DNA of 45,610 nt, taken from the IMG/VR virus record IMGVR_UViG_3300036861_000314, positions 1-45,610 of that record. The stretch is one strand, 5' to 3'. Positions 166 through 42,959 of this stretch are shown here, in pieces. Numbering within the stretch: the stretch's first letter is position 1; every line of letters begins with the position of its first letter. The position numbers and the translations under genes were made by a program. The notes under the pieces were generated by a model that was given only the letters and a program-made list of their open reading frames with translations, made no database searches and was not told the DNA's origin. This DNA is from a virus.

Positions 166-2442
166 CTAAGTTGAGTGCTGGCCGCCCTGCGCGACCGACT
201 GGGCCATCTCTTGCATCTGTCCAGACATCGCAGCGGGCGATGAGGCGCCCCGCATTGGCGGGGGCGAAGACATGAAGCCGCCCGGCGTCGGCTGGCCTTG
301 CTGCTGGCCGGCGACCGCCTGAGATTGGGCGACTAGAAGTTGCTGATGGTATTCGGCATGCTTTTCACCGAGAAGCTGCACGATCGGGGGCCACTGTTGG
401 AACGACTCCGACTTCGCCTTCGCGCGCATCTCGCGCGAATGGATCGAATGGTCGTCGATCGAGGGGCGCACCTTGGGTATCTGGAGTTGATACTTCTCCT
501 GGAAGAACTGCGAAAGCATCGAATAATCCATCTGCTCAGCCGCTTGGAGGTCCTCCGGTGTAGCCTCTCGCATCCGCGGGTCCATCGCCAGCTTCTCGAA
601 CGCTTCGTTCTCCATGATGGCGTTCTTCGTGTCCGCCGCCATCGTGGGTGTGAGGTTCGTTCGGCCATAAACTTCCAGGAACTTCCACTTCACTTCGGGG
701 TCTTGGATGTTGATGACGCCCATCTGTGCCAGTTGTTCCATCTCCGCTTTGTCGAGCAGGCTCGAGCGCGGATTGGACGAGGCGGCCTCGGGGATCACGT
801 CGATACGGCCCTGGAGATCCGCACCGAGAAACTTCTCAACCTGCCACTTCCCATCGCGCCCCTTGATCCGGAGCAGCCGCGGCTCAGTCACAAACTCGCG
901 GAAGATTTCGAGGGCTTGCCGCGCCCAGGTCGCCCATGCCTGCTCCCAGAGAATGAACAGGGGGCCATAACGAGAGAGGTTGCGTTCTTGCAAAATCTGG
1001 AGGGCGATGCCCGCCGAGATCCCCTCTGGCCGCGCACCTTTGATGACATCGAACGTCGCGGCAAGTTCCTCGAAGGTGTGGTCGATACGCTGGAGAAACT
1101 CGACAAATGAAACTGGGATGGCCTGCCCGCCCAACCGTTCGGGCTTTGCGGCATTGGGTCCTACCGCGTTGTACGACACGATGTTGCCGGGGTCGCCCGT
1201 CAGATTCGTGACGTTGGCGCCGTTTGGCTTCAGCCAGATCGGCGAGCCCATCCTCATACCACACGCCTCGATAACCGACTCCCAGCGGTTGCGCTGGGAT
1301 TGTTTTGACGCAAGATCGTCGGCAACAGTCTTCGCGTAAGCGGAACCGGGGACTAGCTTCTGCGGGAAACAGACCGAGGGTAAGAAGTATCCGCGGCTAT
1401 CGCCGGGATTCTCCGGCGGGGCGCTGTACGGCAGCGGGCCGGCATACGCGATGGCAGCTTGCCCGACTTTAATCGCTAATAGGCCGTCCGGATACGTCTT
1501 GTCCGGCAATTGCCAATACCAGCGCTCGGTAACCTTCGTGTTTTGTCCAGACGTAGACCCCATGAAGCGGCCAGTCTGGTTCTCGTCAATGGGCGGCCCG
1601 GCGAGCGGCAGGTTCGCCATATACATCGGCCCGCTTTCAGTGACGTTCGCTGTAATCTGATCCGCGATCTGAGGCCAGCGTTCCTTCGATTCGTCTACCG
1701 GAACAGCCTTTTCACGGATGTACGCGCGCTGCTGCTCCCACACAGGCACGCTCGGGTCGAAAAACATCTCGAAGATAGTCGCGACATCGACATACAGGCG
1801 CCCAACAGGCACTTGATCGCCGATGGGCTGACCCATCGCGTCCACGGCGGGCTGCATCTCGGGCGCCCCACACGCTTCACATGGGGCGGGACCTGCTTGC
1901 ACCGCGCCGCACGCGGGGCATTGATTGGACTGCATGAACCGAGTACCGAACCGCGGCGAGGGATCATAGCCCGTCTCTAACCACGCCATTCCGGTGAGCC
2001 CGACCCACACTGCGAGAATCTGGCGCCAAATACGAAGCTTGACTTCGTCTTCGATTACGTCAATAGCCCGGACGGCGACATCCGCGGCTGCACGGTCGTC
2101 GGGCTCATCGGCACTACCTGGTCTGAAATTCAACTGAGGCTCTATTCGCGCAAATACTGAAATCAGTGCATCAAGAGTTGAGGCAAATACATTAGTTACA
2201 GGCGTAGGTGTGTTATGGGGCAATTTAGCAGAACGCCAACGGCTCGACCCGCGGTCAAACTTGATCCACTGTTGACCGCGATAGAACAGAATGTTACGCC
2301 ACGCCGCACGAAGGAACGGCTCGCGGCCTCGTTTCCACTCATCGTAACGCTTGTTCATGAGCGATCGGATTGCATCATGGTCTGCGTAAGCATCTTGGGC
2401 GGTCTGGTAATCAGCCACGTCTATCCGCGTGCCATTCGGCAA
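166..2442 (-). CDS. Portal protein
   Basis: The 758-residue product is in the size range of podovirus portals. The portal is the dodecameric head vertex through which DNA is packaged and ejected. Features supporting this are an N-terminal helical region with a GQQW motif (residues 56-59), a hydrophobic WVGLTGMAWLETGY segment (146-159), position in the terminase-portal-scaffold-capsid order, and a Gln/Pro/Gly-rich tail such as often forms the portal barrel. Four cysteines at 175, 178, 188 and 191 form a CxxC-N9-CxxC zinc-ribbon-like insertion, which is unusual. The start overlaps the end of the upstream zinc-binding gene by 32 bp. Identification rests on synteny and general character, not on one diagnostic motif. 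Confidence 0.85.
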   Translation of the reverse strand: MPNGTRIDVADYQTAQDAYADHDAIRSLMNKRYDEWKRGREPFLRAAWRNILFYRGQQWIKFDRGSSRWRSAKLPHNTPTPVTNVFASTLDALISVFARIEPQLNFRPGSADEPDDRAAADVAVRAIDVIEDEVKLRIWRQILAVWVGLTGMAWLETGYDPSPRFGTRFMQSNQCPACGAVQAGPAPCEACGAPEMQPAVDAMGQPIGDQVPVGRLYVDVATIFEMFFDPSVPVWEQQRAYIREKAVPVDESKERWPQIADQITANVTESGPMYMANLPLAGPPIDENQTGRFMGSTSGQNTKVTERWYWQLPDKTYPDGLLAIKVGQAAIAYAGPLPYSAPPENPGDSRGYFLPSVCFPQKLVPGSAYAKTVADDLASKQSQRNRWESVIEACGMRMGSPIWLKPNGANVTNLTGDPGNIVSYNAVGPNAAKPERLGGQAIPVSFVEFLQRIDHTFEELAATFDVIKGARPEGISAGIALQILQERNLSRYGPLFILWEQAWATWARQALEIFREFVTEPRLLRIKGRDGKWQVEKFLGADLQGRIDVIPEAASSNPRSSLLDKAEMEQLAQMGVINIQDPEVKWKFLEVYGRTNLTPTMAADTKNAIMENEAFEKLAMDPRMREATPEDLQAAEQMDYSMLSQFFQEKYQLQIPKVRPSIDDHSIHSREMRAKAKSESFQQWPPIVQLLGEKHAEYHQQLLVAQSQAVAGQQQGQPTPGGFMSSPPPMRGASSPAAMSGQMQEMAQSVAQGGQHST

Positions 2443-3467: not shown

Positions 3468-5165
3468 CTACGAGTAAAATTCGCCAATTTCGGTCTGCGC
3501 GAGTGCGTTTTCGCGCCCATGTTCCATCGCGCGTATCTTGCGGTGCAGTAATCGCGCCGCGCGAAGACTAGAACGATCTAACGGCTCGCCGGGCGGGCGT
3601 TGTGACTGAATTTCGCGCTCGAACTGCCGTTCCTCGCGCTCTTCATCGTCCAAACCGGCGTCGGAGTCCGCCATCTCGGGCCGAACACGCATCTGGAGGC
3701 AATCGGCGAGCGCATCGAGCAAATCGTCGTGCGTGGACTCTTTCCACGGGCGGAACCGCTCAGCTTCCTCAAGAAAATCAGTCAGTGCAGGCAAATCAGA
3801 CGCGAATACGATCTGCTGCGACTGCCAGAAAGGTTCCAGCGAGCGAATACGCACGCTCTTGCCCATCTTCGTGTCCCGTTCGAGCTTCATCAGCGGCAAA
3901 TACACGCCGCGGCTCTCGGAGGCACGCTGAAACTCGCGCAAGTAGAGCTTTTGGAAGCCTACGGCCTCAAATCCGATGATCCGAATGCCAGGAATGCGTC
4001 GATACGCTGCGAAAACCTCATCAATAAGCTGGCTTTCCGCCCATCGGCCACGCCGCAAGTCCAGCACGTACGCCATGCCGTCCGGCGCGAAGCCCACAGT
4101 GGCGATGGCGGAATAATCTGCCCACGCTTTCGTGCTGATGGCGGGGTCTACCGCAGAAACACACCACAAATCCGCGGGATCAGGTAAGTCAACTCGGGGT
4201 TTGATGACTGCCTTACTTCGGGGAAAGAGAGCCGAGGAGTCGTCAACGGGTCGGAGAAGCCATTGAGCAGCGAAAAGTCGCGGATTAATGCGGCGGCGCT
4301 CATCCAAACTATCCCGGGAATGCTTCTCGGCGAAAGCTGGGATGAGCTGGCCCCCTGCATCTTTGAGATATTCATCTTCTGCAATACCGCCTCGCTCATC
4401 AAGTCGTAGTGTTCCAGGCTCGCGCACCTGCCAGCAGGGCTGGCGAAAGATACCGAGCTTGAGATTGCCCGCGATGCGCTGCTGTATGGCCCAGTCGTAT
4501 AGATCCCCGAATTCCCAAGGGGTGCCAATTATGTCTTGGGTCGCATTCGGCTCAAAAAGCGACTGAGACGTACTGTACCAGTGGATAGTTTTTTCGAGAA
4601 GATCGCGTGTGCGCGAATTGGTCTCGTCAACCAAATCGTCGAAAGTTCCGTGATCGTAGTGCCGCCCCGTAGATGCGCCTTCGACGCCGATTGTCTCAAT
4701 CGTCGCTTCCTTCGTTTCGCGAGGACGCTGCACGCTAAGCGCGCTCTGAGACCATTCCGTCGCGTCCCGATACGGGTCTTCCCATAACACCTCGGGGAAG
4801 AGCCAGACCAGTAAGGGGTTAGCTAAATGCCCCTTGATCTCGGCCAACATGCCCTCAGCCGCATCGGCTTTATCCGACGCCAAGAGAATACGGACGGTCG
4901 GATCTTTCAAGATCCGTTGCACATTCGCCGAAATTGTGAGAAGGGAAGTTTTTAAGTGGTCGCGCGAAAGAAGATATAAATTACGCTTGTGCGGCGATCT
5001 AGCCCGCCACGAGCAGACCGCGCGATGGAATTCCTTGGTCATCGGCGTGGCGCTATCTTTGTAGAGGATGTATCGCGCGAGCGCGAACAGGTCGGTCAGC
5101 GCAAGATGGCGGAGGGCTGCTCGCTGATCCGGTTTACTCTTTCGGCTGGTCAGGACTGTCGGCAT
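3468..5165 (-). CDS. terL: Terminase large subunit (ATPase-nuclease)
   Basis: 565 residues, normal for the family. The packaging motor pumps DNA into the procapsid and cuts it. An N-terminal ATPase is indicated by a deviant Walker A at 67-74 (SRDHLKTS, of the R..xKT type known in terminases), a Walker B-like TFDDLVDE at 174-181 and a GTP coupling motif at 214-216. The C-terminal RNase H-like nuclease has Asp340 (VDPA), Glu400 (GFEAVG) and HDDLLDALAD at 479-488. It overlaps the small-subunit gene by 32 bp, so the two are translationally coupled. Confidence 0.95.
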   Translation of the reverse strand: MPTVLTSRKSKPDQRAALRHLALTDLFALARYILYKDSATPMTKEFHRAVCSWRARSPHKRNLYLLSRDHLKTSLLTISANVQRILKDPTVRILLASDKADAAEGMLAEIKGHLANPLLVWLFPEVLWEDPYRDATEWSQSALSVQRPRETKEATIETIGVEGASTGRHYDHGTFDDLVDETNSRTRDLLEKTIHWYSTSQSLFEPNATQDIIGTPWEFGDLYDWAIQQRIAGNLKLGIFRQPCWQVREPGTLRLDERGGIAEDEYLKDAGGQLIPAFAEKHSRDSLDERRRINPRLFAAQWLLRPVDDSSALFPRSKAVIKPRVDLPDPADLWCVSAVDPAISTKAWADYSAIATVGFAPDGMAYVLDLRRGRWAESQLIDEVFAAYRRIPGIRIIGFEAVGFQKLYLREFQRASESRGVYLPLMKLERDTKMGKSVRIRSLEPFWQSQQIVFASDLPALTDFLEEAERFRPWKESTHDDLLDALADCLQMRVRPEMADSDAGLDDEEREERQFEREIQSQRPPGEPLDRSSLRAARLLHRKIRAMEHGRENALAQTEIGEFYS

Positions 5166-5610
5166 CGATCACGTCGCCCGCGATCTGGGCGCGAGTCTCG
5201 GGCATGCTGCCGGCCAACATCGCGCGCAGAAGCGCATTTACTTCCTCGGGCGGCGGAGCCGCATGAATATGGCCGATAGCTCCGGTCACTTGAAGCTTGT
5301 CGTTATACTTACTCGGCCGCTCGGCCTTCAATCGCGCGATGATGGCGAGGAAGCCCATGCTCTTGACTTGGCCTTTGCCCATCTGCACCATGAGTTTTTC
5401 GAGGCTGTCCACGAAGTGCTCGTGAGCTTCCTCGAACTTCTCGGCAAACGTGGGGCTCGCCTCGCGACGCTTCCGAACATAGGGAGTCGTGACACCAGCC
5501 AGCTTGGCTGAGAGCGTGATCCCGCCGAACTCCTGGTAGTGGTCGAGAAACGGTTGTTCCCACGGCTCGGCAGTTTCGCTAACGATGCCGCGCCCCTTGT
5601 ACTTCGCCAT
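5134..5610 (-). CDS. terS: Terminase small subunit
   Basis: 158 residues from the ATG at 5610, which forms a TGATG overlap with the preceding stop. The N-terminal region (about 25-60) reads as the helix-turn-helix of small terminases: ITLSAKLAGVTTPYVRKRR, then SPTFAEKFEEA. A helical oligomerisation part and an acidic tail follow. It would recognise the packaging site on concatemeric DNA and hand it to TerL, encoded next. Family assignment is by motif and position. Confidence 0.85.
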   Translation of the reverse strand: MAKYKGRGIVSETAEPWEQPFLDHYQEFGGITLSAKLAGVTTPYVRKRREASPTFAEKFEEAHEHFVDSLEKLMVQMGKGQVKSMGFLAIIARLKAERPSKYNDKLQVTGAIGHIHAAPPPEEVNALLRAMLAGSMPETRAQIAGDVIDADSPDQPKE

Positions 5611-5771
5611 CAATTTTTCGAGGCGTACGTCGCCACTATCGCCACGTAAGCGCCCTCATCACAAGGTTCGCCACAATCCTCGCATGGCGGCAGATTCACC
5701 AGCGGCAGACGATAAGCGACCATAAAGATGGGATTCGCCCAGGTCGGGTTCGGCTCGATGTGCGCACTCAT
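5610..5771 (-). CDS. Small protein with CxxC-x3-C motif
   Basis: 53 residues from the ATG at 5771, which overlaps the upstream stop as ATGA; the stop overlaps the terS start as TGATG. Three cysteines in the segment CEDCGEPC, followed by aromatic residues, suggest a metal site. No family is recognised. The close coupling on both sides argues for a real gene despite its size. Confidence 0.6.
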   Translation of the reverse strand: MSAHIEPNPTWANPIFMVAYRLPLVNLPPCEDCGEPCDEGAYVAIVATYASKN

Positions 5772-7095: not shown

Positions 7096-7359
7096 CTAGT
7101 ACGTAGGGTGCGCGCTGGTTGCGCCGCTGTTATCAATGCGGTCGATCGTGTGCCCCGCGGGCCGCTCGCCCATGTCGGCTAGGAAGTTCGAGAAAGATCC
7201 CAACCACCGCAAGCAGACACCAATGCCGCGGGCGCCGTATTTCTGGAAACTCTCGAAGCGCGGGTCGTAACAACGTCGCCGCATACACCGCCAGGTGATG
7301 TAGGTAGGGCTTGGGGGTCGCGCGTGGCCGTGCCGCTCGTATCTGCCCCGTAAGAACAT
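7096..7359 (-). pseudogene. Decayed HNH endonuclease-like gene
   Basis: 87 residues. The core (TYITW.CM..RC, then KYGARGIGVCLRW, FLADMGERPAG and TIDRIDN) is clearly related to the protein at 8737-9099. The end differs: after DRIDNSG the frame reads into ATSAHPTY and stops, where the intact relative has [15 protein letters not shown]. Fragments resembling the missing end occur in other frames just downstream (for example RTSKELAQ near 7090-7110). This is probably a frameshifted, inactive homing-type endonuclease. It is the first gene of the late minus-strand block. Confidence 0.6.
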
Positions 7360-7446
7360 TTATGGCTCTTTCCCGCGCTATGCGCGTCTCAGATGGGACC
7401 CCTATTGTGACAACCTGGCACTAGAAAGTCTTTGGAGTGTAGTTGC

Positions 7447-7499
7447 GGGAGTCCCAAATGCCCCCCGGCGGAGGCGCCGGGGCGAGGAACGGGACTCCC
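7447..7499. other. Two-tier hairpin (possible terminator or structured RNA)
   Basis: An outer 9-bp perfect inverted repeat GGGAGTCCC (7447-7455) / GGGACTCCC (7491-7499) encloses an inner 8-bp GC stem CCCCGGCG (7463-7470) / CGCCGGGG (7475-7482) with loop GAGG. No U-tract follows on either strand. It lies just upstream of the late block. Confidence 0.6.
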
Positions 7500-7685
7500 C
7501 AAGACTCGATATCCCAACGCCATCGCACACTTACATCGTGCGCGCCATCGTGCGAGCGAACAAGTTAGTAAGATCGCGGAGTTACATCGTGCGATGAGGC
7601 ATTGGCATCGTGCGGCCGGGCGCACGATGGGACAAGCTGGATTAGGTTGGTTGGCTTGTATTACGCGGGGTTACATCGCACTATT

Positions 7686-7702
7686 GCACGATACCATCGT
7701 GC
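7686..7702. promoter_or_regulatory. Palindromic half-site pair GCACGAT-N3-ATCGTGC
   Basis: A perfect 7-bp inverted repeat with a 3-bp spacer, built from the same half-site as the surrounding repeats. Probable dimer binding site for a phage DNA-binding protein. Confidence 0.55.
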
Positions 7703-7831
7703 TTGGCGTGCGATGGCGGTATGATGGTCGTCAGATGGCGAGTGTCTCATTTTTACCACACACTAACCAGCCACCAACCGGCCTCACACTAGAGATACTG
7801 AACCAGTGATTTCGTGACAGACTGTCCTACA

Positions 7832-7879
7832 CAGTTTCAGCCAGTTTCAGCGTCATACTTGTAAAGCAACTTGTAAAGC
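7832..7879. repeat. Two short tandem repeat pairs
   Basis: CAGTTTCAGC occurs twice in perfect tandem (7832-7841, 7842-7851). CTTGTAAAGC follows twice with a 12-bp period (7858-7867, 7870-7879). The relatively AT-rich stretch ends at the palindrome at 7884. Direct repeats beside palindromes and AT-rich DNA resemble replication origins. Confidence 0.55.
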
Positions 7880-7883
7880 TCAA

Positions 7884-7906
7884 TTATCGTGCCAATTGCA
7901 CGATAA
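7884..7906. promoter_or_regulatory. 23-bp palindrome TTATCGTGC-N5-GCACGATAA
   Basis: Perfect 9-bp arms separated by CAATT. It contains two ATCGTGC half-sites head to head, the strongest such site in the region. Likely operator or initiator-binding site. Confidence 0.6.
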
Positions 7907-7934
7907 CTATGTAACATCGCGCGCTAAAATACAC

Positions 7935-7952
7935 TATTAGGTGCACCTAATA
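7935..7952. promoter_or_regulatory. Perfect 18-bp palindrome
   Basis: TATTAGGTGCACCTAATA is its own reverse complement with no spacer. It is unrelated to the ATCGTGC half-site, so it is probably the target of a different dimeric protein. Confidence 0.6.
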
Positions 7953-8215
7953 TCATGTTTGCACGATTTCGCAAGCCGCCATCGAACAGCAAGCGAGCGA
8001 ATTCGCCTACTTGCACGAAAAATGGGGGAGGGGGACAGGGCGAACGTTCTACGTGAGCCCAGGGGGAGGCGAAGCGGAGGGGACAAGGAGTGAGGCTCTG
8101 CGAACGACGCGCTAGAGCCCGCTGCTGCTTCGCTTACGCTCCGCAGCGGGGGAGGAGCTAGCGAAGCGAAGGCGAAGCCTGAGCTAGCTAGCGGAGGGGG
8201 ACTAGTTTCGCACAA

Positions 8216-8256
8216 GCGCCATCGTGCCGGCCGAAGCGTTAGCGAGAGGCCGGCGC
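8216..8256 (-). terminator. Hairpin after the repressor gene
   Basis: CCGGCC (8227-8232) pairs with GGCCGG (8248-8253), with partial extension by GCGCC / GGCGC outside. It lies immediately after the repressor stop codon on the minus strand. There is no clear U-tract, so termination is only suggested. Confidence 0.35.
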
Positions 8257-8649
8257 CTACTTGGATTGTTTCTTGCGGTATCGCTTCCTTCCTTCCGCAT
8301 GATTGCGCGCTGCGGTAGTAGCGCTGCTCATTTGTTCCAGGAATAGCTCCCAGGCTTCGTCGCTAGCATCCTCCGCCAGCTTGTGCGCCGTCTCTTCGAT
8401 GTCACAGAGCTGCTTCATCCTAGCTCCCTGTCCCTGCGTCTCGGGGAGTTGCAGCAGGGCCGCCAGGGGTACGTCGAGCCCCCTGGCGAGCGCTACCAGC
8501 ATCGAGACAGCATCGAGCGGTTGCTTGCCGGTCTCATATCTATAAATTTGGTGGGCGACCAAACCGCCTCGGTGGGCGACCTGCTCTCGGGAGAGTCCTT
8601 TGCTTTCCCTGAGCGCTCTTAGCTCTGCTCCCGAGATTACGCCCGGCAT
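8257..8649 (-). CDS. XRE-family repressor (cI-like)
   Basis: 130 residues from the ATG at 8649; the same frame is open to a TTG at 8685, but that TTG lies inside the -35 box. The N-terminus is an XRE/Cro-cI helix-turn-helix (about residues 7-62): RALRESKGLSREQVAHRGGL, then IYRYETGKQPLDAVSMLVAL. The rest is a short acidic/helical tail ending in a Lys-rich stretch. There is no S24/LexA protease domain, so RecA-driven self-cleavage is unlikely. Position beside divergent promoters fits the lysogeny repressor. The transcript is predicted to be leaderless. Confidence 0.85.
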   Translation of the reverse strand: MPGVISGAELRALRESKGLSREQVAHRGGLVAHQIYRYETGKQPLDAVSMLVALARGLDVPLAALLQLPETQGQGARMKQLCDIEETAHKLAEDASDEAWELFLEQMSSATTAARNHAEGRKRYRKKQSK

Positions 8650-8685
8650 ATCCGGAATATAGCCTTGTAGGACCATAGCTGTCAA
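8650..8685 (-). promoter_or_regulatory. Repressor promoter, leaderless
   Basis: A consensus -35 TTGACA (8685-8680), 18-bp spacer and -10 TATATT (8661-8656) are followed by 6 bp and then the A of the ATG at 8649. The +1 therefore falls on the start codon, as in lambda PRM-cI. Confidence 0.75.
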
Positions 8686-8706
8686 GGCCTGAAATAAGTC
8701 TTGACG
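8680..8706. promoter_or_regulatory. Operator-like inverted repeat between divergent promoters
   Basis: TGTCAAG (8680-8686) and CTTGACG (8700-8706) form an inverted repeat with one mismatch at the edge and a 13-bp spacer. The arms coincide with both -35 boxes, and looser symmetry continues outwards (GGTCC on both sides). A repressor bound here would block both promoters. Confidence 0.55.
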
Positions 8707-8729
8707 GCAGGGTCCGTTAGGCTTATTCT
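8701..8729 (+). promoter_or_regulatory. Early rightward promoter, leaderless
   Basis: TTGACG (8701-8706), exactly 17 bp, TATTCT (8724-8729). Seven bases later is the ATG at 8737 of the HNH gene, with no Shine-Dalgarno possible if transcription starts at 8736-8737. Confidence 0.7.
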
Positions 8730-8736
8730 TCTGAGT

Positions 8737-9099
8737 ATGGCGTTCCTAGGACCGCATACCCCCGAAGCACGGAAGAAGATTGCGGACGCTCGCACGATGC
8801 ATGGCCACGCCACGCCCGGTGTCGAGACAACTACCTATCGGATTTGGAAGGGCATGATTGCACGTTGTGTGAATCAAAAACGTTGGGACTACCCGTACTA
8901 CGGTGGTCGTGGCATTGCCGTCTGCCCACGCTGGAGGGTGTTCGCTAACTTTCTAACCGACATGGGCATACGCCCCGCGGGACTAACGCTGGAGCGTAGC
9001 GACAATGGCGGTAACTACGAGCCTGCTAACTGCCGATGGGCAACGCGCAAAGAGCAATGTGCAAACAGACGGCTTAGCCCGTCAAGAATAAAAGCTTGA
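8737..9099 (+). CDS. HNH-type homing endonuclease-like protein
   Basis: 120 residues from the ATG at 8737. It shows the pattern of a phage HNH family: [12 protein letters not shown], then [32 protein letters not shown] and [19 protein letters not shown]. The Asp-Asn plus N.CRW..R.EQ elements would form the metal-finger active site. It occupies the cro position, the first gene of the early transcript. It is an intact relative of the decayed copy at 7096-7359. It may act as a selfish nicking enzyme or may have been recruited for early functions. Confidence 0.75.
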
Positions 9100-10237: not shown

Positions 10238-10912
10238 ATGATTCGGCATGAATTTGATAACTGGTTTTCGGAACACTATAACGATCTTCTAGCTGTTGCG
10301 CGAGTCCGACTCGATTTAACGCTCGGAACATATACCGATGACGCTCCTGCCGATGTTGTGCACGAGGCGTGGGCGCGGGCTGTCGAGAATAGCGCTTACA
10401 AGGAATTTGGGGCGCTCAATAAGATGGGTGCTTGGCCTTGGTTTGCGGGGGGCACGCAACCGCGTACCTACGGAGTTATTGATAGCATTGTAGCCAATGC
10501 TGCCGATAGTGCCAGACGGGCAAAAAACGGTGGGTCAGTATCTCTAGAGTGGATAGATCGCCGTGAGTTAGACAATTCCGGCCGCGTTCTATGGTTTCGA
10601 CAAGACACGCCGGGTGAAGCTAAATTTGATGGTCCTCGCAGTCTAACTGGATATAACCCCGGACGGCAGAGCGGCGGGACCCGCTCACGTCCGATTACTC
10701 CCGAGAATTGTCCAAAGTCCCACGGTGTTTCGTTTGCGGGCGAGTTTACGGTTGGGCAATTAGCGCCGTGTAAATGCGGCGCTATTGTGCGGCATCGGAT
10801 CGAACGCGGCCGAGATGTATCGCCTCGAAGCGGTAAGCGCAAGTCCTACACCATCGAAGTTCTGGGCTGTTTAAATGGCCACCGCTCGAATACAAAAGTG
10901 GTGTCTTCATGA
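10238..10912 (+). CDS. Sigma-factor-like N-terminus with zinc-binding C-terminus
   Basis: 224 residues. Residues 5-55 (EFDNWFSEHYNDLLAVARVR, then DDAPADVVHEAWARAVE) resemble region 2 of ECF-type sigma factors: a helix, then an acidic DA.DVVHEA.W.RA helix. No region 4 helix-turn-helix is evident. Instead the C-terminal third has CPKSH, CKCG and a final C..GH, a probable zinc domain, separated by Arg/Lys-rich segments. It could be a phage-encoded transcription regulator that captures host RNA polymerase, which would suit late-gene switching. The resemblance is by eye and may be superficial. Confidence 0.5.
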   Translation: MIRHEFDNWFSEHYNDLLAVARVRLDLTLGTYTDDAPADVVHEAWARAVENSAYKEFGALNKMGAWPWFAGGTQPRTYGVIDSIVANAADSARRAKNGGSVSLEWIDRRELDNSGRVLWFRQDTPGEAKFDGPRSLTGYNPGRQSGGTRSRPITPENCPKSHGVSFAGEFTVGQLAPCKCGAIVRHRIERGRDVSPRSGKRKSYTIEVLGCLNGHRSNTKVVSS

Positions 10913-11730: not shown

Positions 11731-12570
11731 ATGAAATACACCGTCGAACATGCGCGCAAGTGTCTCTCGGTAATTGATGCTGGGCTAATCGTGGGGCTTG
11801 GTCAGCCTGAGCCCGGGGAGATGTGCGTAGAGGCCGCGATCTGCTACGCGCTCGGATTGCCGCACGGTGATGACCCGGGTTGCATCTCGGCGGCCGTACG
11901 ATCATTCAAGATTTCGCTGAATGACAAGCGTTGGTCGTCGGATACCGCGAGAGCTGCTGGGTTACGTGCGCTTGCTGTCGCGCAACTCGGCAGCAAAGGT
12001 GTAATTGATGATCGTGTGTTTGTTCAGCGTCTTACAGAACAAATTATTCGTGTAATTGTACCCATTGCTCTTCGAGCATCGGCGCGGCGGGTTCCGTCTC
12101 ATGCACTGGCTCTTGAAACTGCGGCAGTAGCTTGCGAGCGCGAAGGAACGCGGGAAGCGGCCCTAGCGGCTCGTGACGCCGCCGACGCCGCCGACGCCGC
12201 CATCGCCGCCGCCGACGCCGCCGCCGACGCCGTCTGCGCCGCCGCCTACGCCGCCGCCTACGCCGCCTACGCCGCCGACGCCGCCGTCGCCGACGCCTAC
12301 GCCGCCGACGCCGTCGCCGACGCCGCCGACGCCGTCGCCGACGCCTACGCCGCCGACGCCGTCGCCGACGCCGTCGCCGACGCCGCCTACGCCGACGCCG
12401 CCTACGCCGACGCCGACGCCGTCGCCGACGCCGCCGACGCCGTCGCCGACGCCGCCTACGCCGACACTCGCGATGCGGTCTTGGCTAAGGCCGCATCGCT
12501 CGCGTTCGATGTTCTTCGCGAGATGGGTACGCCTGGTGTCGCGTTATGGGATGCGGTGAACGCCGAATAG
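11731..12570 (+). CDS. Ala/Asp/Tyr repeat protein
   Basis: 279 residues, start adjacent to the previous stop (TAGATG). The N-terminal 130 residues are non-repetitive and include CVEAAICYALGLPHGDDPGC, a motif I have seen in phage proteins of unknown role. Residues about 148-247 are a low-complexity helical run of Ala with regularly spaced Asp, Tyr and Val (ADAADAA, AYAAYAAD, ADAVADA). The C-terminus returns to normal sequence (AKAASLAFDVLREMG). It could be a long amphipathic helix or stacked short repeats. Function unknown. Confidence 0.75.
   Translation: MKYTVEHARKCLSVIDAGLIVGLGQPEPGEMCVEAAICYALGLPHGDDPGCISAAVRSFKISLNDKRWSSDTARAAGLRALAVAQLGSKGVIDDRVFVQRLTEQIIRVIVPIALRASARRVPSHALALETAAVACEREGTREAALAARDAADAADAAIAAADAAADAVCAAAYAAAYAAYAADAAVADAYAADAVADAADAVADAYAADAVADAVADAAYADAAYADADAVADAADAVADAAYADTRDAVLAKAASLAFDVLREMGTPGVALWDAVNAE
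12175..12470 (+). repeat. GCC-GAC/TAC/GTC trinucleotide-type tandem repeat
   Basis: About 295 bp composed almost only of GCC alternating with GAC, TAC, GTC and GCC codons, with longer repeated units such as GCCGACGCCGTCGCCGACGC recurring. It lies inside the Ala-rich gene and is likely to vary in copy number. Confidence 0.8.
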
Positions 12571-12573
12571 GCC

Positions 12574-13365
12574 ATGGCGTATAAAAAACCCGGCAGATTT
12601 TATCAGATTGACGGGCTGTCTCTACCCTCAGTCACAACGATTCTTTCTGTTATCGCGAAGCCGCAACTCATAAATTGGGCCAGCTATTCTAGCCGCGATA
12701 ACACCATCGACGCCGCCATCGCGCAGTATCAAGCGTTCGCAGCGGCCGGGTCGTGGGTCTCGAACACGAGTTTCAAGGCTGCGATTCTGAAGCATCTCGG
12801 CAAGCGGCCAGCGCATCTGTCGAAGTCAGACGAAGCAATCGACATCGGTACGCTCGTTCACGCTCGCGTGGAAGCTGAGATGCGTCGTGAACTGGGGCAG
12901 GACGTGGCGCTGCCAGAGGTTCCCGAGCAAGAGATCGTTAACGGTATGGCGAAGGCGCATCCGGCGTGGAGCGCTTACCAAGCTTATTTGGCTTGGCGTC
13001 GCGCGAACGAAGTGAAACCGCTCGAAGTCGAGAAGCGGCTCTATAGCAAACGCCACGGTTATGCCGGTACAGCGGACTTCGAGGGATATGTAGCGGATAA
13101 ATTGACGGTCGCCGACTGGAAAACTTCCCGCGGCGTGTACCCAGAGTACCGGTTGCAGGTAGCCGCTTACCGCACCGCTCGTTACGAGATGGGGCCGCAA
13201 TGTGGTGTCCTCGGCGGGCTTGTGTTGCGGTTCCCCAAGGCGGTTGACGATACGTTCGAGGCGCACGATGTGAAGCCCGAGGAGCAGGGCGAATTATTTG
13301 GCGTCTTTATGGCGGCTCACCAAATTTGGCGCTGGGAGAACCCAGACGAAGGGGTTTTTGAGTAA
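12574..13365 (+). CDS. RecB/Cas4-like PD-(D/E)XK exonuclease
   Basis: 263 residues. It has the order of motifs of the RecB-type nuclease family: GTLVHARVEAEM around His96, GYAGTADFEGYV with Asp168, VADWKTS with Asp181 and Lys183, and YRLQVAAYRTA around Gln195-Tyr199. No four-cysteine iron-sulphur cluster is evident. Such phage enzymes resect DNA ends for recombination and replication. It lies between the repeat protein and the replicative helicase, in the early operon. Confidence 0.85.
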   Translation: MAYKKPGRFYQIDGLSLPSVTTILSVIAKPQLINWASYSSRDNTIDAAIAQYQAFAAAGSWVSNTSFKAAILKHLGKRPAHLSKSDEAIDIGTLVHARVEAEMRRELGQDVALPEVPEQEIVNGMAKAHPAWSAYQAYLAWRRANEVKPLEVEKRLYSKRHGYAGTADFEGYVADKLTVADWKTSRGVYPEYRLQVAAYRTARYEMGPQCGVLGGLVLRFPKAVDDTFEAHDVKPEEQGELFGVFMAAHQIWRWENPDEGVFE

Positions 13366-14187: not shown

Positions 14188-14301
14188 GTGGTCACCTTCA
14201 TCGCCACCGTCTGTGCCGCATTTGCATTTGGTTTGATTATTGTTGGCGCCGTGTTCTTGCTGTCCGCGATCGTGCGGAATCATCTGGATGCGCGCGAGTA
14301 G
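14188..14301 (+). CDS. 37-residue single-span membrane protein
   Basis: GTG start at 14188, two bases after the previous stop; its last 14 bases overlap the start of the primase-helicase gene. The product is MVTFIATVCAAFAFGLIIVG, then AVFLLSAIVRNHLDARE: one clear transmembrane helix with a basic/acidic cytoplasmic end. The position, between a secreted protein and a replication protein with tight overlap, argues that it is translated. Function unknown. Confidence 0.55.
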   Translation: MVTFIATVCAAFAFGLIIVGAVFLLSAIVRNHLDARE

Positions 14302-15886
14302 TTTTCTCGACGCCGCGCTTGCGTACCAGCGCGCCGGGCTCCACGTAATACCCGTGGAGCCTAAAGGCAAGCGTCCGATCTTAGCGTCTTGGCGTGAGTA
14401 CGTCGAGCGCCGGCCGACCGAGGCCGAGATTACCGATTGGTGGTCACGTACACCGGATGCAAATGTCGCGCTCCTGATGGGGCGCGGCGTGTTCGCTTTG
14501 GATATTGACGGGCCGGAAGGCGAAGCCGCGCTTGCTGCAGCCGGGATTGAGCTTCCTGACGACGCGCCGCAGACGGCAACGGGCAAGGGGCGCCATGTCT
14601 TTATGGCCGGCCTTGCGCTGAACAGCGTCGGCGTGCTGCCGAAGGTTGATACACGCAGCGATGGCGGTTACGTGGTTGTCTCGCCGAGTGTCCACCCAAA
14701 CGGCACGAAGTATGCCTGGCTTGGTCGCTGGCCTACCGGGCAACTTCCGTCCGCTCCGCCCGCTCTGCTGGAGCTAGTCGCCCGCCCTACAAAGCCCGGT
14801 GCGGCAGCGGTTGCACCGGGTGTGACGAGTGCGGACTGGGTTTCCGCCGCACTGTCCGGCGTTGGCGAAGGTTCGCGAGATGCTATGTGCGCGAGGCTCG
14901 CCGGTTATTTTTGGGGGCTTGGCGCGACTGAAGCAACTGTAGAGATTATTTGTCAAGGGTTCGGCGAGAGGTGTGAGCCGGCATTCCCGCCGGACCAGGT
15001 TAGTAAGACCGTCGCGTCGATTGTGCGGCGCGACGGAGGGCCGCAAGTTTCGGTTGGTCCGGCCGCGTCGCTTGACGACGCCATCGAGGAATTCCTTCTC
15101 GAAATGGGGCTACCCGCCAACGAGCGGCGTGTCCGGCCAACCGATATGCCAACGCTGGATCGCTTGTTGTCGGGCGGCTTTAGCCCCGGTGAGCTAATTC
15201 TACTTGGAGCGCGCCCTGGCGTAGGCAAGACCGCGCTGAGCTGCCAGTGGGCGCGGCGCACGGCGAAGACGGGCGCCGGTGTGCTGTTCATCTCAAGAGA
15301 GATGACACGAGTGGCACTGGTGCGGCGGCTGCTGGTGCAAGAGTCGCAGGTGCGCGCGTCGGCTTTAAAGACCGGCGATCTGAGTGATATCGAACGCTCG
15401 ATGCTAGCCGCTGCGATCGAACGCATACGCTACACGCCGTTTCGGCTGACTCAGGACGTGTCTTCGATCGAGGGGCTGAATGAGGAACTGGCCCGCTTTG
15501 AGGCAGGCCAGCTCGGGCTCGTAGTGGTCGATTACCTCCAGTTGATGCGCGGTCCCGCTGACATGCGGGACAAACGCGCGACTGTCGAATACGTGTCGTC
15601 TGAGTTAAAGGCGCTAGCGATGCGGTACGAGGTGCCGATGTTGGTGCTGTCGTCGCTACGGCGTCTCGCCAAACGTAAAGACGGCGATCGCGAGCCGCCC
15701 GATATGAGCGATCTTCGCGAGAGCGGCGAGCTAGAGCATTCGGGCGATGTTGTTTTGATTATGGAGCGCGATTTTGGAAGCGAGGAAGCGGATCTTGTCG
15801 TCGCCAAAAATCGGGATGGGCGCGTGGGGCGGATCAAATTGCGGTTCACGGGCGAGCTTATGCAATTTGAAGAGGTTTGGAAGTGA
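14288..15886 (+). CDS. Primase-polymerase / DnaB-type helicase fusion
   Basis: 532 residues from the ATG at 14288. An N-terminal bifunctional primase-polymerase (Prim-Pol) domain spans about 5-165: PVEPKGKRPI, ALDID with Asp72 and Asp74, GRHVFM with His103, and DTRSDGGYVVVSPSVHPNG. The C-terminal RecA-like DnaB helicase domain begins near 285, with Walker A GARPGVGKT (307-315), Walker B VVVDYLQLM (412-420) and SSLRRL as arginine-type sensor region. One polypeptide thus primes and unwinds DNA at the fork. It is followed by GTGA coupling to an HNH gene and then the polymerase. Confidence 0.92.
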   Translation: MRASSFLDAALAYQRAGLHVIPVEPKGKRPILASWREYVERRPTEAEITDWWSRTPDANVALLMGRGVFALDIDGPEGEAALAAAGIELPDDAPQTATGKGRHVFMAGLALNSVGVLPKVDTRSDGGYVVVSPSVHPNGTKYAWLGRWPTGQLPSAPPALLELVARPTKPGAAAVAPGVTSADWVSAALSGVGEGSRDAMCARLAGYFWGLGATEATVEIICQGFGERCEPAFPPDQVSKTVASIVRRDGGPQVSVGPAASLDDAIEEFLLEMGLPANERRVRPTDMPTLDRLLSGGFSPGELILLGARPGVGKTALSCQWARRTAKTGAGVLFISREMTRVALVRRLLVQESQVRASALKTGDLSDIERSMLAAAIERIRYTPFRLTQDVSSIEGLNEELARFEAGQLGLVVVDYLQLMRGPADMRDKRATVEYVSSELKALAMRYEVPMLVLSSLRRLAKRKDGDREPPDMSDLRESGELEHSGDVVLIMERDFGSEEADLVVAKNRDGRVGRIKLRFTGELMQFEEVWK

Positions 15887-16347
15887 CACCGGAGCGAGTG
15901 GCGTATCACCGCGAGTACAGACAAAGCGCGCGGGGCCGTGAGGCAAAACGCCGTTTCAATGCGAGCGAAAAGGGGCTCCAATCGCGGCAGCGACACGACG
16001 CTAAACGGACCGCCACAGCATCGTGGCGCAATGGATACTTGCGCGCTGTATTCGGTCTGCAATCGGGGGAATACGACAAGCTTCTGGCTTTCCAGGGGGG
16101 CGGTTGCGCTTTGTGTGGGGTCACGGGGAAGACGCGGAGATTGCCGGTGGATCATCGGCATAAAGACGGATTGACTCGGGGGATTCTTTGCTACCGCCAT
16201 AACCGTGGTTTGGGTTTCTTTAGGGACGATGCCGACCTGTTACAGCGCGCAGTTGATTATATCCGACAACCGCCCGCAACTGTGGCGCTCGGTCGGGAAG
16301 TTTATGGGCGCAAAGGCCCTGTACGAAAGCGGTTACGCGGTGCCTGA
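15883..16347 (+). CDS. Endonuclease VII-like HNH endonuclease
   Basis: 154 residues, GTG start at 15883 overlapping the helicase stop (GTGA). The pattern is that of phage recombination endonuclease VII-like proteins: FGLQSGEYDKLLAFQGGGCA, CxxC (CALC), PVDHRHKDGLTRGILCYRHN, then LGFFRDD...RAVDYI. In this copy the second zinc pair is C..H rather than C..C. It is inserted between helicase and polymerase genes and overlaps the polymerase start, a typical homing endonuclease placement. Confidence 0.8.
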   Translation: MTPERVAYHREYRQSARGREAKRRFNASEKGLQSRQRHDAKRTATASWRNGYLRAVFGLQSGEYDKLLAFQGGGCALCGVTGKTRRLPVDHRHKDGLTRGILCYRHNRGLGFFRDDADLLQRAVDYIRQPPATVALGREVYGRKGPVRKRLRGA

Positions 16348-18220
16348 GCTCACTATCGAGCAGCGCGAACTGCTCGCGGCCCTTCGTGCGGCTCTGGCGG
16401 CCGTTCACTCCCCCGAAACATTCGAGGCCGCCATCGCGCGGGTTGGCACGATGACCGAGGCGGTCATTGATCTTGAGTGGGACCCGGACACTGAGGTACT
16501 CGAACTGGTCGGAATCGGCGGACATAACTTCACCGGGTACGATCGGTTCGCGGTCTGCCAATTCTCTTGGCCGGAGCTTAACGACGGCCAGAAGCAGGAA
16601 GTACGCGAGACGGTTTACGCACTCATAGGTCGGGCTCATTTGGTTTATATGAACGCGGCAGCGGACATTAAACAAATGCGGCGCAATGGCTTCAAGCTCA
16701 ACGCCATCGACCACATCAACCTCGACGATGTGATGCTCGCTGATGCTGTCCTGAACAGCGAGGCGGACCACGACCTCGGCGATCTGAACAAGCGTTATGG
16801 GCGACTGCCGGACGGCTACAAGTCACTCAAGAAGATAGCGCCAAAAGAATACAACGCGGCTGACCTGATCGCGCCTATCCAAATCTGGCGCGCGCTTTCG
16901 AAAGAGTTTGCCAAAGATCCGGCGGCCGAAGGCGTGTACCGCGATATGTCTTTAGCGTATTTGCGCGAGATTCAAATCGAAGCTGAAGAGTTCGGCGTGC
17001 GCGTGGCCAAGGCGGTTCCGTATGTGCTGCACGACCGCTACAGCGCTAAACGCGAGCAAGCCGCGCGCTTGGCTGCCGCGTACGTCGGCGGCCCGGGTAT
17101 CAACCTGGGCTCATCGAAGGATCTGAAAAAATTTCTGTTCGTTGTGGAAGGCTTGCCCGAGCAGCGCGAGCGCGCGTACGGCGGCATCGAAGGGAAGCTC
17201 ACAACCGACAAAGACGCTATAGCCGCGCTGCGGCGCGGGCTGGGAACAGAGTACTCCCCCGACGACGAACCGACTCTGGAAGCGGCCTGGAGCAATATCG
17301 AAGCGGGCGGGCATCCCCTCTTAGAGAGTCGCTACCTCTTTATGAACGCGCAACAGGCGATTTCTCACTATATCGGCCCGTGTCTTGAATACGACGCGAA
17401 GGGCGAAGTAGTCGGTATCAAGGACAGGCTGTACCCGGAAACAAGGTTACATGTTCAGGCTAGCGGTCGGCCGTCGATAGTCGGCCCAGCACTACAACAG
17501 TTCCGCGGCGAGCTTCTTACGTTGATCGCGCCGGACGAAGGGCACTGCTGGGTTGGGTGGGATTGGAACCGCATAGAGCCGCGTCTCTTGTACTACTTAG
17601 CAAACGATCTTCCCGGTATTCGGGTGTGCGAGAGCGGAGAGGACATTTATCAGCCAGGTATTCGAGCGATCTTCCCTGAGATTGGTTCGCCGGAGTTGGA
17701 AGAGATGCGGCGCCGGTTCGGAAAAGCACTGATCCTACGTATCCACTACAGAGGCAATCCCAAGAATGCCGGAGACATTCCAGGGACAAGAGCACTAGGT
17801 CTCAAGGTGCCCGATTTGGTTGCCGCCAGTGAGCGGTACTTAGCCGAGCATACGGCTCTACCCGAGCACTGGAATAAGGTAGACGCCCAAATCGACCGCT
17901 CTGGAGTTGTCTACACGTGGGCGGGGCGCCCGCGGCGGTTGACTAACCCCCACCCGGCCGCGCGCTATCGAGAAGGTTCTAACCATCTCTGTCAGGGCGG
18001 TGTAGCTGACGTGTATCTCCTGACGGCCTTGGCGGTCAAGCGGGCGGCTCCCTGGAGCCGCCTAGTGTACGGAGCACACGACGCGCAAACATGGCAGGTG
18101 CCCGTCGAGCGCCGTGAGGAATTTCGCGCACTAATCGAGCCGATCGTGCAGCGAGAATTTCTGATTGGCACTCGCTCGGTTTCGTTCCCCGCAACTTTTA
18201 AGGAAAGGGAGGCACCGTGA
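16304..18220 (+). CDS. Family A DNA polymerase
   Basis: 638 residues from the ATG at 16304; earlier in-frame starts would only extend into the HNH gene. The N-terminal 3'-5' exonuclease-like domain has AVIDLEWD (Asp56, Glu58) and NAAADIKQM (Asp121). The polymerase domain shows the ASGR...ALQQFRGELL segment, motif A DWNRIEPRLLYYLAND (Asp420, Glu425), motif B RRRFGKALILRIHYRGN (Lys474), and motif C YGAHDAQTWQVP (His592, Asp593). Motif C has HDA where most family members have HDE. It is the replicative polymerase, partnered by the Prim-Pol helicase. Confidence 0.9.
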   Translation: MGAKALYESGYAVPELTIEQRELLAALRAALAAVHSPETFEAAIARVGTMTEAVIDLEWDPDTEVLELVGIGGHNFTGYDRFAVCQFSWPELNDGQKQEVRETVYALIGRAHLVYMNAAADIKQMRRNGFKLNAIDHINLDDVMLADAVLNSEADHDLGDLNKRYGRLPDGYKSLKKIAPKEYNAADLIAPIQIWRALSKEFAKDPAAEGVYRDMSLAYLREIQIEAEEFGVRVAKAVPYVLHDRYSAKREQAARLAAAYVGGPGINLGSSKDLKKFLFVVEGLPEQRERAYGGIEGKLTTDKDAIAALRRGLGTEYSPDDEPTLEAAWSNIEAGGHPLLESRYLFMNAQQAISHYIGPCLEYDAKGEVVGIKDRLYPETRLHVQASGRPSIVGPALQQFRGELLTLIAPDEGHCWVGWDWNRIEPRLLYYLANDLPGIRVCESGEDIYQPGIRAIFPEIGSPELEEMRRRFGKALILRIHYRGNPKNAGDIPGTRALGLKVPDLVAASERYLAEHTALPEHWNKVDAQIDRSGVVYTWAGRPRRLTNPHPAARYREGSNHLCQGGVADVYLLTALAVKRAAPWSRLVYGAHDAQTWQVPVERREEFRALIEPIVQREFLIGTRSVSFPATFKEREAP

Positions 18221-21376: not shown

Positions 21377-22363
21377 ATGTCATTCTCTGTCCTACGGGGT
21401 GAGACCATGACATTCTCGGCGCTGGCTCGCGACTACCTCCGCTCGAAGGCTGCGGTCGGCCGACAGGCCGCCCGGACTGGCGAGAATTACGACGAGACGT
21501 TTGGGTTATTCGTGGAGTTCCTGCATGGGCAGGGGCGCCAGGACGACGTTCGCGAGTTCACGCCCGAAAACGTCGCCGCGTTCCGCGACTGGCTAACCGC
21601 CGGCCGAAAGGGCTCGTCGGTCTCGAACCGGCTATCCGCCCTGTCTAGCCTCGGCCAATGGGCGACCAAGACCGAGCGGCCGAAGGCCACTCGGCTAGCG
21701 ATCAACCCTGCTTCCCCCGACTTCGTGGAGCGCCCCAAGAAGGAGCACCCGCGGGAGAAGTTCCTATATCGGGAGGAGCTTGCCGCCCTCCGGGCGGTAT
21801 CGTGCGACCCTTGCGAGCGGCTGGCGCTTGACCTGTTCCTCGACACCGGGCTCCGGGTGAACGAGTTGGCAAGCGCGACGGTACGGTGCCTGACCCTGGA
21901 AGCCCGCCCTGCGAGCCTAGGCGCCGCCAGGATCGACGATCAGCCTCCGGGGGCTACTCCGGCAGGGGTAGTCCTGAGCGTCCGCCTCAAGGGCGGGCGG
22001 CAGAGCCCGCCTATCCCGCTCGACCCCGACTTGGGGGCTCGGCTGGAGGTCACCCTCCGCCAGCGGGAAGTCAAGCCGGACGACCCCCTGCTCGTGAATA
22101 CCCGCGGGGATGCCTATAAGCGGAACACTCTGACCGAGATGGTGTACCGGCTGGCTTGCCGGGCCGGCATCACGCGGATTCCGGTAAGGCCGCACGTGCT
22201 GCGGCACACCTACTCAGTGTTCGCGCGGCAGGCGGGGTTAGATACCGTGCAGAGGGCTAGCTTGCTTAACCATAGCGATACTTCCACTATCCACCGATAC
22301 GATCACTTGATGCCGGGAGAAGCTGTGAGCGCACGATCGCGCGTGAGGGAGGCTATGAGGTGA
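21377..22363 (+). CDS. int: Tyrosine recombinase (integrase)
   Basis: 328 residues from the ATG at 21377 with CGGAGGA upstream. The N-terminal SAM-like core-binding domain covers about 11-110. The catalytic domain has Arg160 (DTGLRVNELA), Lys205 (RLKGGRQ), His273 and Arg276 (HVLRHTYS), His299 (LLNHSDTST) and the nucleophile Tyr308 (IHRYDH). All active-site residues are present. It would catalyse integration and excision of the prophage. Alternatively such enzymes resolve multimers, but with a repressor present lysogeny is the simplest reading. The attachment site may lie in the gap at 22896-23126. Confidence 0.92.
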   Translation: MSFSVLRGETMTFSALARDYLRSKAAVGRQAARTGENYDETFGLFVEFLHGQGRQDDVREFTPENVAAFRDWLTAGRKGSSVSNRLSALSSLGQWATKTERPKATRLAINPASPDFVERPKKEHPREKFLYREELAALRAVSCDPCERLALDLFLDTGLRVNELASATVRCLTLEARPASLGAARIDDQPPGATPAGVVLSVRLKGGRQSPPIPLDPDLGARLEVTLRQREVKPDDPLLVNTRGDAYKRNTLTEMVYRLACRAGITRIPVRPHVLRHTYSVFARQAGLDTVQRASLLNHSDTSTIHRYDHLMPGEAVSARSRVREAMR

Positions 22364-24544: not shown

Positions 24545-25560
24545 TACAGGCGCGTCTCCGGCTCCGGTGAGCTTTGGCTATTAGCCGCCGTCCCGAGAAG
24601 GATCTTTAACAAGCTCCCCCAGTCCGTAGACGGCGCAGTCGAGGGTGCAGGGACAGGCGGTTTTTGTTTAAGCGTGTCTTTCATAGTCCAGCCGGGTAAC
24701 TCTGGCCCGTACGGGACGATCTTGGGCGGTATAGCGGGCTTGAGGGGCTGGCCGGTTGGGCCGAGCAGGTTTGGCCCTCCGTGCCCTGCCGGAACGCCTG
24801 TGGGCACGTACATCCCCATGCCCTCGCCTGGCACTGCCGCAGTCGGTGCTTGCTTGGCCGCAAGTAGATTCTCTAGCGCTTTGGTGTTGGCCTGATAAGC
24901 CAGCGCTTTTGAGCCCGGCGAAGCTGCCATTGCGCGCGCCGCTACTGCCGGTCCTGCCCGCTTGAGCACGCCTGCTAGCGGCCCCGCGCCCTCTAGGAGC
25001 GCCTGGATACCGCCGCCCTGCAGCGCCGCCTTTCCCATCGGTTGTCCTTGTAGACCCGCCTCAATGCCGCGACTTGCGCCACCAACGCCGATTCGGGCAA
25101 GCGCCGGCGCCAAAACAGGGTAGGCAGGGGCTGCAGCGCCCGCAGCGGGTCCGGCGGCGAGCATGGCGCCTAGCGTCGCTATATCCCCCGCCGCTTGGGT
25201 TTTTGTGGGGATATAACCGCTCCCTGGGAACTCTTTGCCCAATTCGGGGCGTTGCCCCGCCCGGATGGCGTTGTTCGTTTGCATCCATGGATGTTCCGTC
25301 TGGACGCGATACTGTTGCGCCTGCTGTGTAGCCGCCTTAATGTCGGGCGCCTGAACTTCGTACGTATTGCCGTTGGGGAGTTGGATTTCGAAGGTTGACA
25401 TCCCACCGCTCGGAGGTGTCTCGCCACCGAATTGCACTTGTGCCCCGGGCTCATACTTCATGGCGCCCACGGAACGGTTAATATCCGGCTCCTGGATGCC
25501 GCGCTGGCGCATTTCGTTAGCCATGTCATCCGTAGTTACTTTCGTGGTAACGGGCGGCAT
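24544..25560 (-). CDS. Candidate ejection (internal virion) protein
   Basis: 338 residues. The N-terminal region contains a small module, FEIQLPNGNTYEVQAPD, then IKAATQQAQQYRV, typical of phage head/ejection proteins. A long Ala/Gly-rich hydrophobic middle (IATLGAMLAAGPAAGAAAPA and following) may insert into membranes. The C-terminus is Pro-rich. Such proteins are stored in podovirus heads and pass into the cell ahead of the DNA. Assignment is by composition and position. Confidence 0.6.
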   Translation of the reverse strand: MPPVTTKVTTDDMANEMRQRGIQEPDINRSVGAMKYEPGAQVQFGGETPPSGGMSTFEIQLPNGNTYEVQAPDIKAATQQAQQYRVQTEHPWMQTNNAIRAGQRPELGKEFPGSGYIPTKTQAAGDIATLGAMLAAGPAAGAAAPAYPVLAPALARIGVGGASRGIEAGLQGQPMGKAALQGGGIQALLEGAGPLAGVLKRAGPAVAARAMAASPGSKALAYQANTKALENLLAAKQAPTAAVPGEGMGMYVPTGVPAGHGGPNLLGPTGQPLKPAIPPKIVPYGPELPGWTMKDTLKQKPPVPAPSTAPSTDWGSLLKILLGTAANSQSSPEPETRL

Positions 25561-42498: not shown

Positions 42499-42959
42499 GC
42501 CGCTGCCTCTTTCCTTTGTGTGTAGTGTTTGCGCGCGTGTGTGCGAATCCGATGGCAATTCGCACACACGACTTCGCACTTAGCGATTTCCGCTGCTAGT
42601 TTTTCCATCGAACATTTACCCTTCATTAACCCGATGCTGAACGTCTTCTCACCGAGGTGATCGAAGTCCATAGCAACGGGCGGATATTGCACCCCACAAT
42701 CCGCACAGGGACGATTTTTCAAAACGTCCACCATCTCTGAGCGTTCGCGGTAACGTCGGCGACTGTATTCGTTGTAATACTCAGGATTACGCGCTTTCTG
42801 CTCCAGTTGAGCCGCATACGCACACGACTTACAATACGAAGCACGATAATCTCGTGCCGCGTAGCGCGGCTGAGAAGACCGTTTACCGAATTTTGTAGAA
42901 CGGTGGAATTGATCGACTGGTTTAGTCTGCGCGCAACGACCGCAGCGGATTTCAAGCAT
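42495..42959 (-). CDS. HNH endonuclease, zinc-finger type
   Basis: 154 residues; ATG shares a base with the capsid gene stop (TGATG). N-terminal CGRCAQTKPVDQFHRS and YCKSCAYAAQ pairs (zinc), then CADCGVQYPPVAMDFDHLGE, a D.DH.G HNH core, and CEVVCANCHRIRTHARKHYT at the end, the CxxC-H.N..H arrangement of a common phage HNH family. Inserted directly behind the major capsid gene, a typical homing site. Confidence 0.82.
   Translation of the reverse strand: MLEIRCGRCAQTKPVDQFHRSTKFGKRSSQPRYAARDYRASYCKSCAYAAQLEQKARNPEYYNEYSRRRYRERSEMVDVLKNRPCADCGVQYPPVAMDFDHLGEKTFSIGLMKGKCSMEKLAAEIAKCEVVCANCHRIRTHARKHYTQRKEAAA

Follow-up and report, generated by a model that had tools for sequence, protein, structure and literature searches.

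A mixed-orientation short-repeat array at the late/early junction of a temperate phage genome is a probable replication origin

Genome organization around the repeat-rich region

We analyzed a window of 45,610 nucleotides, i.e., the whole stretch of DNA from one IMG/VR virus record (IMGVR_UViG_3300036861_000314). The 131 bases at its two ends agree at 130 of 131 positions, and this end repeat indicates a circularly closed genome of about 45,479 bp; the window is essentially a complete, circular temperate phage. Late genes occupy the minus strand and early genes the plus strand, and the region studied here (positions 7360 to 8256; 897 bp) sits at the junction between them (Table 1). The strong repressor promoter lies over the start of the repressor open reading frame (ORF), so that transcription probably begins at, or slightly ahead of, a downstream ATG and would give a leaderless mRNA. 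The lambda cI mRNA transcribed from PRM is leaderless as well. The two HNH endonuclease genes flanking the region and the repressor gene belong to one family; both are 57 to 60% identical over 51 to 85 amino acids to HNH proteins of Bradyrhizobium phage ppBjS10J-1, and they are possibly mobile genes inserted near the putative origin. A search for the host via prophages gave only two weak hits, both to MAGs.

An earlier, sequence-only reading of this DNA had proposed an iteron origin here while recognizing no plasmid-type initiator gene. The latter statement is correct, but it overlooked the phage's own replisome, i.e., a Prim-Pol/DnaB fusion, a family-A DNA polymerase (PolA), and an exonuclease.

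Table 1. Positions of genes and sequence features in the window
Feature	Position	Strand	Remark
Portal	166-2442	-	Late
Large terminase (TerL)	3468-5165	-	Late
Small terminase (TerS)	5137-5613	-	Late
HNH endonuclease fragment	7096-7359	-	Start of late block
Inverted repeat GGGAGTCCC/GGGACTCCC	7447-7499		Encloses a second GC-rich stem; no T-run
Iteron set 1, ATCGTGC	7535-7702	both	7535+, 7547+, 7586+, 7607+, 7622-, 7686-, 7696+; one mismatch, 7678-
Imperfect palindrome of two half-sites	7606-7629		11/12 pairs
AT-rich spacer between iteron sets	7703-7885		183 bp; 48% GC (genome, 59%)
Putative unwinding element	7740-7970		Genome minimum of stability and GC content; lowest 100 bp at about 7854-7960
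Tandem 10-mers, CAGTTTCAGC x2	7832-7851
Tandem 11-mers, ACTTGTAAAGC x2	7857-7879		12-bp period
Perfect palindrome TTATCGTGC-N5-GCACGATAA	7884-7906		ATCGTGC-N5-GCACGAT
Iteron set 2, ATCGTGC	7886-7967	both	7886+, 7898-, 7961-; one mismatch, 7916+, 8013-
Perfect palindrome TATTAGGTGCACCTAATA	7935-7952		Unrelated to half-site
G-rich stretch with hairpin potential	8020-8256		RNA fold z, -2.7 (plus strand) and -2.2 (minus strand)
G-runs	about 8025-8090
Eleventh ATCGTGC, outlying	8221-8227	+
HTH_31/HTH_3 repressor	8257-8685	-	Adjoins region
Repressor promoter, TTGACA-N18-TATATT	8685-8656	-
HNH endonuclease	8701-9099	+
Two short ORFs		+	Early
Sigma region 2-like protein, Cys-rich C terminus	10238-10912	+	Candidate binder
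Exonuclease	12574-13365	+	Early
Prim-Pol/DnaB helicase fusion	14240-15886	+	548 aa
Endonuclease VII		+	Early; listed between Prim-Pol/DnaB and PolA
PolA	16205-18220	+
Tyrosine integrase	21377-22363	+	Early
Major capsid	42959-44251	-	Late; tail genes also minus

The iteron array and its unstable DNA

The sequence-only reading had described about 0.9 kb of repeat-rich, noncoding DNA with about eleven ATCGTGC half-sites, two palindromes built from them, an unrelated perfect palindrome, two tandem repeat pairs, and G-runs, all of which we could locate. There are 11 exact ATCGTGC sites in the region (7 plus and 4 minus) versus 17 in the remaining 44.6 kb (0.38 per kb), corresponding to a Poisson P of 1.4e-13 with the outside rate as the expectation. 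Dinucleotide shuffles of the region contained 0.15 sites on average and 2 at most, and thus the enrichment is real and not compositional. Besides, 3 further sites differ from ATCGTGC at one position, and four of the eight genome copies of the variant ATCGCAC are located here. Three ORFs inside the region scored -0.09 to -0.23 on codon usage, compared with +0.06 to +0.23 for 12 clear genes, which makes the region noncoding by this measure; among 50,697 phage records, no DNA match to the region was found.

We also applied a sequence-blind detector, which reports any 7-mer that occurs at least six times, in both orientations, in a stretch of 500 bp and leaves out arrays inside ORFs of 200 amino acids or more. 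The ATCGTGC array at 7535 to 7967 was the only mixed-orientation noncoding array in the genome. The strongest 7-mer cluster of the genome lies in an early gene (11731 to 12570) with a low-complexity Ala/Asp/Tyr repeat of the DAAYAADA type.

The array makes up about 1% of the genome, yet it holds the genome's GC and stability minima, a feature overlooked by the sequence-only reading. The lowest-GC windows of 100, 150, and 250 bp start at 7861, 7811, and 7721, respectively, and nearest-neighbor energies place the starts of the least stable windows of 100 and 200 bp at 7854 and 7740, respectively. The region thereby combines two marks of an iteron origin, i.e., multiple copies of a short repeat in noncoding DNA and adjacent, easily melted AT-rich DNA. 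The functional-looking core spans about 7522 to 7970, and the part from 8000 to 8256 is G-rich and structured, with one further site; an Rfam search gave no known RNA family for it. The cumulative GC skew, a check suggested with the sequence-only reading, reaches its minimum at 6301, about 1.2 kb from the array, which speaks against an origin here but is confounded by gene direction.

The array immediately precedes the late block and neighbors the repressor gene, and its palindromic 19-bp sites resemble operators; these features also fit transcription control, in which a phage activator or repressor would bind ATCGTGC, switch the leftward late operon, and silence it in the lysogen. However, the array contains no sigma70-like promoter, ATCGTGC is absent from the repressor promoter region (8656 to 8730), where an operator array would be sought, and an origin accounts better for eleven irregularly arranged sites of both orientations that surround the genome's least stable DNA. 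Together with the orientation of an element shared with a relative (see below), these observations make transcription control unlikely. Readings of the region as a repressor operator, an attP site, or a parS-like site found no support. Integrase arm sites are short repeats, and the phage encodes a tyrosine integrase, but its gene lies 13 kb away and no tRNA or tRNA fragment was seen in the region, so that an attP with arm-type sites is scarcely credible. The exact 19-bp palindrome occurred in 84 contigs, approximately the number expected by chance, and formed no dense clusters.

Closest relatives of the replication module

Scans with single Prim-Pol or PolA sequences yielded no close relatives, whereas an alignment scan succeeded. 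One relative, G16 (locus L294), matches this phage at 49% in PolA, 45% in Prim-Pol/DnaB, 68% in an exonuclease subunit, and 37% in the sigma2-like protein, and nine GTGACA copies occupy 123 bp between its large-terminase and early genes, at a distance of 8.3 kb upstream of Prim-Pol. G15 (L293; Prim-Pol/DnaB, 48%; PolA, 42%), which is nearest to this phage by Prim-Pol, has no iteron array, and this counts against the origin reading. Within the late/early junction of G15 (25205 to 26116), however, lie the 100 bp of lowest stability in that genome (25625) and an 18-nt exact match, TTTCAGCCAGTTTCAGCG, to window positions 7835 to 7852. The 17-nt core of this match occurs nowhere else at 0 mismatches in 3.76 Mb of fetched sequence, and simple arithmetic gives about 2e-5 expected 18-nt matches between two such regions. 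The shared element has opposite orientations relative to the early genes in the two phages, implying that a binding or unwinding element suits it better than a promoter. The G15 repeats AAGGGCGA were rejected as iterons, being coding, collagen-like repeats. A PolA relative, ct9yY11 (32%), has seven GCGGAAA copies beside TerL and seven more elsewhere.

The two closest Prim-Pol/DnaB relatives, as judged from sequence, mark the same late/early junction with an origin-like stretch. The repeats and the instability of the DNA in this phage, as well as the junction position and one conserved element kept in relatives, are established. The exact repeat ATCGTGC is not conserved in relatives, as might be expected of a relic of dispersed repeats or a functionless chance accumulation. 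Nonetheless, a P of about 1e-13, the coinciding stability minimum of the genome, and the conserved position and 18-nt element make such an explanation very improbable.

Survey of Prim-Pol loci

To our knowledge, the replication origins of most uncultivated phages are unknown. The alignment scan supplied 34 other viral loci (523 kb) that encode a Prim-Pol relative, and in these the detector reported 14 arrays with differing repeat words. Thirteen of them either overlap the Prim-Pol ORF or are found no more than 0.3 kb from it, on its upstream or downstream side, and all 14 coincide with the lowest 0 to 1.4% of local GC; locally shuffled loci returned none. Since some loci are near-related (L309/L310 and L312/L314), the arrays represent about 12 independent cases. 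The sole exception to Prim-Pol adjacency is G16, the nearest relative of this phage having an array. Annotated phages agree with this pattern: 16-3 and RHph_X2_25 have repeats directly behind Prim-Pol (see below), and in phage phi3, CGGAACA repeats surround a 22% GC gap directly after the primase. Of the long Prim-Pol fusions that have an array next to them, two carry a terminal HTH domain. The survey suggests that a mixed-orientation short-repeat array at a local GC minimum marks the origin in Prim-Pol phages; such arrays would mostly adjoin the Prim-Pol gene and, in the lineage of this phage, sit where late and early genes meet. The array of this phage, lying 6 kb from Prim-Pol/DnaB, departs from the adjacency seen in 13 of 14 arrays, which argues against the origin reading.

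Two loci (L312, 9998 to 12853; L320, 131 to 3019) encode viral Prim-Pol proteins that contain, as fusions, DUF927 and an HTH of the Cch type (SCCmec Cch family). Immediately downstream of each lies a mixed-orientation array that surrounds a gap of 17 to 23% GC.

In control loci with capsid genes (355 kb), the detector reported 3 arrays, each of them located upstream of the large-terminase gene, and junction arrays could instead serve transcription or packaging. For a packaging initiation (pac) site recognized by the small terminase, arrays lie near or upstream of TerL in G16, ct9yY11, L095, L098, and L099, and circular closure with the 131-bp end repeat is compatible with headful packaging. 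In this phage, however, TerS is about 2 kb away, so that the array is neither in nor beside the small-terminase gene, and such arrays otherwise sit at Prim-Pol genes rather than terminases; we regard a pac site as quite improbable. Among the capsid-gene relatives, L095 (850 to 1350), L096 (2599 to 2837), and L099 (170 to 467; arms of 60 nt) have inverted repeats with GTAAGCTATTGAT/ATCAACANNTTACG motifs upstream of the large terminase. The large terminase of MW202554 (L088, 32005 to 34542) is split in two, and additional sequence, perhaps an intein, separates its conserved parts.

A scan for ATCGTGC itself found clusters beside four primase types (L178, L200, L211, and L250). A special role of this word was rejected; a reversed control motif also gave noncoding clusters (11 hits against 38), and the Prim-Pol arrays use many other words, so that nothing is claimed for ATCGTGC as such. 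Likewise, GTG as a primase start within all iterons is not a rule, because only some arrays contain GTG. The scans also revealed four ATCGTGC sites (++--) between integrase and T7-like RNA polymerase genes (L258, 5240 to 5394) and, with the control motif, a noncoding cluster of four CGTGCTA in one fixed arrangement shared by eight contigs (L283, L285 to L287, and L289 to L292).

Candidate initiator and proposed mechanism

We consider it likely that the region is a theta-replication origin of the phage, consisting of iterons and an unwinding element in a PICI/SaPI-like build. The array, the instability minimum, the two-set layout, the Prim-Pol survey, and the junctions of relatives together make this reading probable. 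The iteron origin put forward by the sequence-only reading is thus the best-supported interpretation, through indirect comparative evidence, and that proposal is partly supported overall.

By analogy with PICI/SaPI, P4 alpha, and pRN1, we infer that binding, melting, and helicase loading take place at the array. A putative sequence-specific initiator would occupy the ATCGTGC copies in both iteron sets, and the bending or strain imposed in this way on the AT-rich DNA inside and between the sets would make it melt. Next, the Prim-Pol/DnaB fusion would load onto the separated strands, unwinding and priming them, and PolA would extend the primed strands. A similar initiation has been proposed for P4 alpha and pRN1 (PMC4234260).

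The sequence-only reading had suggested the sigma-like or zinc proteins as possible binders. No recognized initiator family was found among the early proteins examined. In the fusion, DnaB_C covers residues 300 to 545 of 548, with no further domain and no C-terminal DNA-binding extension, indicating that an origin-binding domain is not fused to it, a point against the origin reading. The sigma2-like protein has a clear homologue in G16, which has a junction array, and a marginal match (E = 0.019) in G15, which has none; this co-occurrence (n = 3) makes it a candidate binder as a lead, not as evidence. A structure model of the protein was unusable (mean pLDDT, 36). It is possible, albeit rather doubtful, that this Prim-Pol/DnaB lineage has its origin at a distance from the replicase, where late and early genes meet, and uses a separate undescribed initiator, perhaps the sigma2-like protein, whose binding word varies by phage.

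Comparison with known replication origins

The crenarchaeal plasmid pRN1 (Prim-Pol ORF904) is likewise a Prim-Pol replicon with a required noncoding element, and its primase starts at GTG, a triplet contained in ATCGTGC, but that element is a 100-nt stem-loop without iterons, in which GTG mutations are tolerated (PMC4234260). Phage P4 alpha uses short repeats as origin sites and encodes a primase-helicase fusion; its primase is of the Toprim type with a winged-helix (wHTH) origin-binding domain (PMC4234260), whereas the phage studied here has Prim-Pol (PF09250) and DnaB without a fused binding domain. The putative origin of SCCmec Cch2 has short iterons near the initiator helicase of a mobile element, and priming prefers the same DNA, although the iterons lie directly downstream of cch2 and the primase is unrelated (PMC7581432). 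Rhizobium phages 16-3 and RHph_X2_25 share a Prim-Pol replicase and mixed-orientation, GTG-containing repeats with this phage, but their 15 to 16 repeats are of the GTGACA type and directly follow the Prim-Pol gene. This array was computed here, and we found no literature description of it as an origin.

The origins of PICI/SaPI (pri-rep-ori) likewise have an AT-rich region with a set of short iterons on either side, in a genome that encodes its own primase-helicase, and this iteron layout has been called peculiar to PICIs (PMC6092414). The same arrangement is present here, with 7 sites to the left and 3 to the right of the AT-rich spacer. A PICI origin immediately follows the 3' end of rep, and its iterons are bound by the C-terminal domain of the Rep protein (PMC6092414), whereas Prim-Pol/DnaB lies 6 kb downstream of our array, has no array beside it, and lacks an iteron-binding domain. 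Similar layouts beside phage primase genes would call into question the PICI-only status of this layout.
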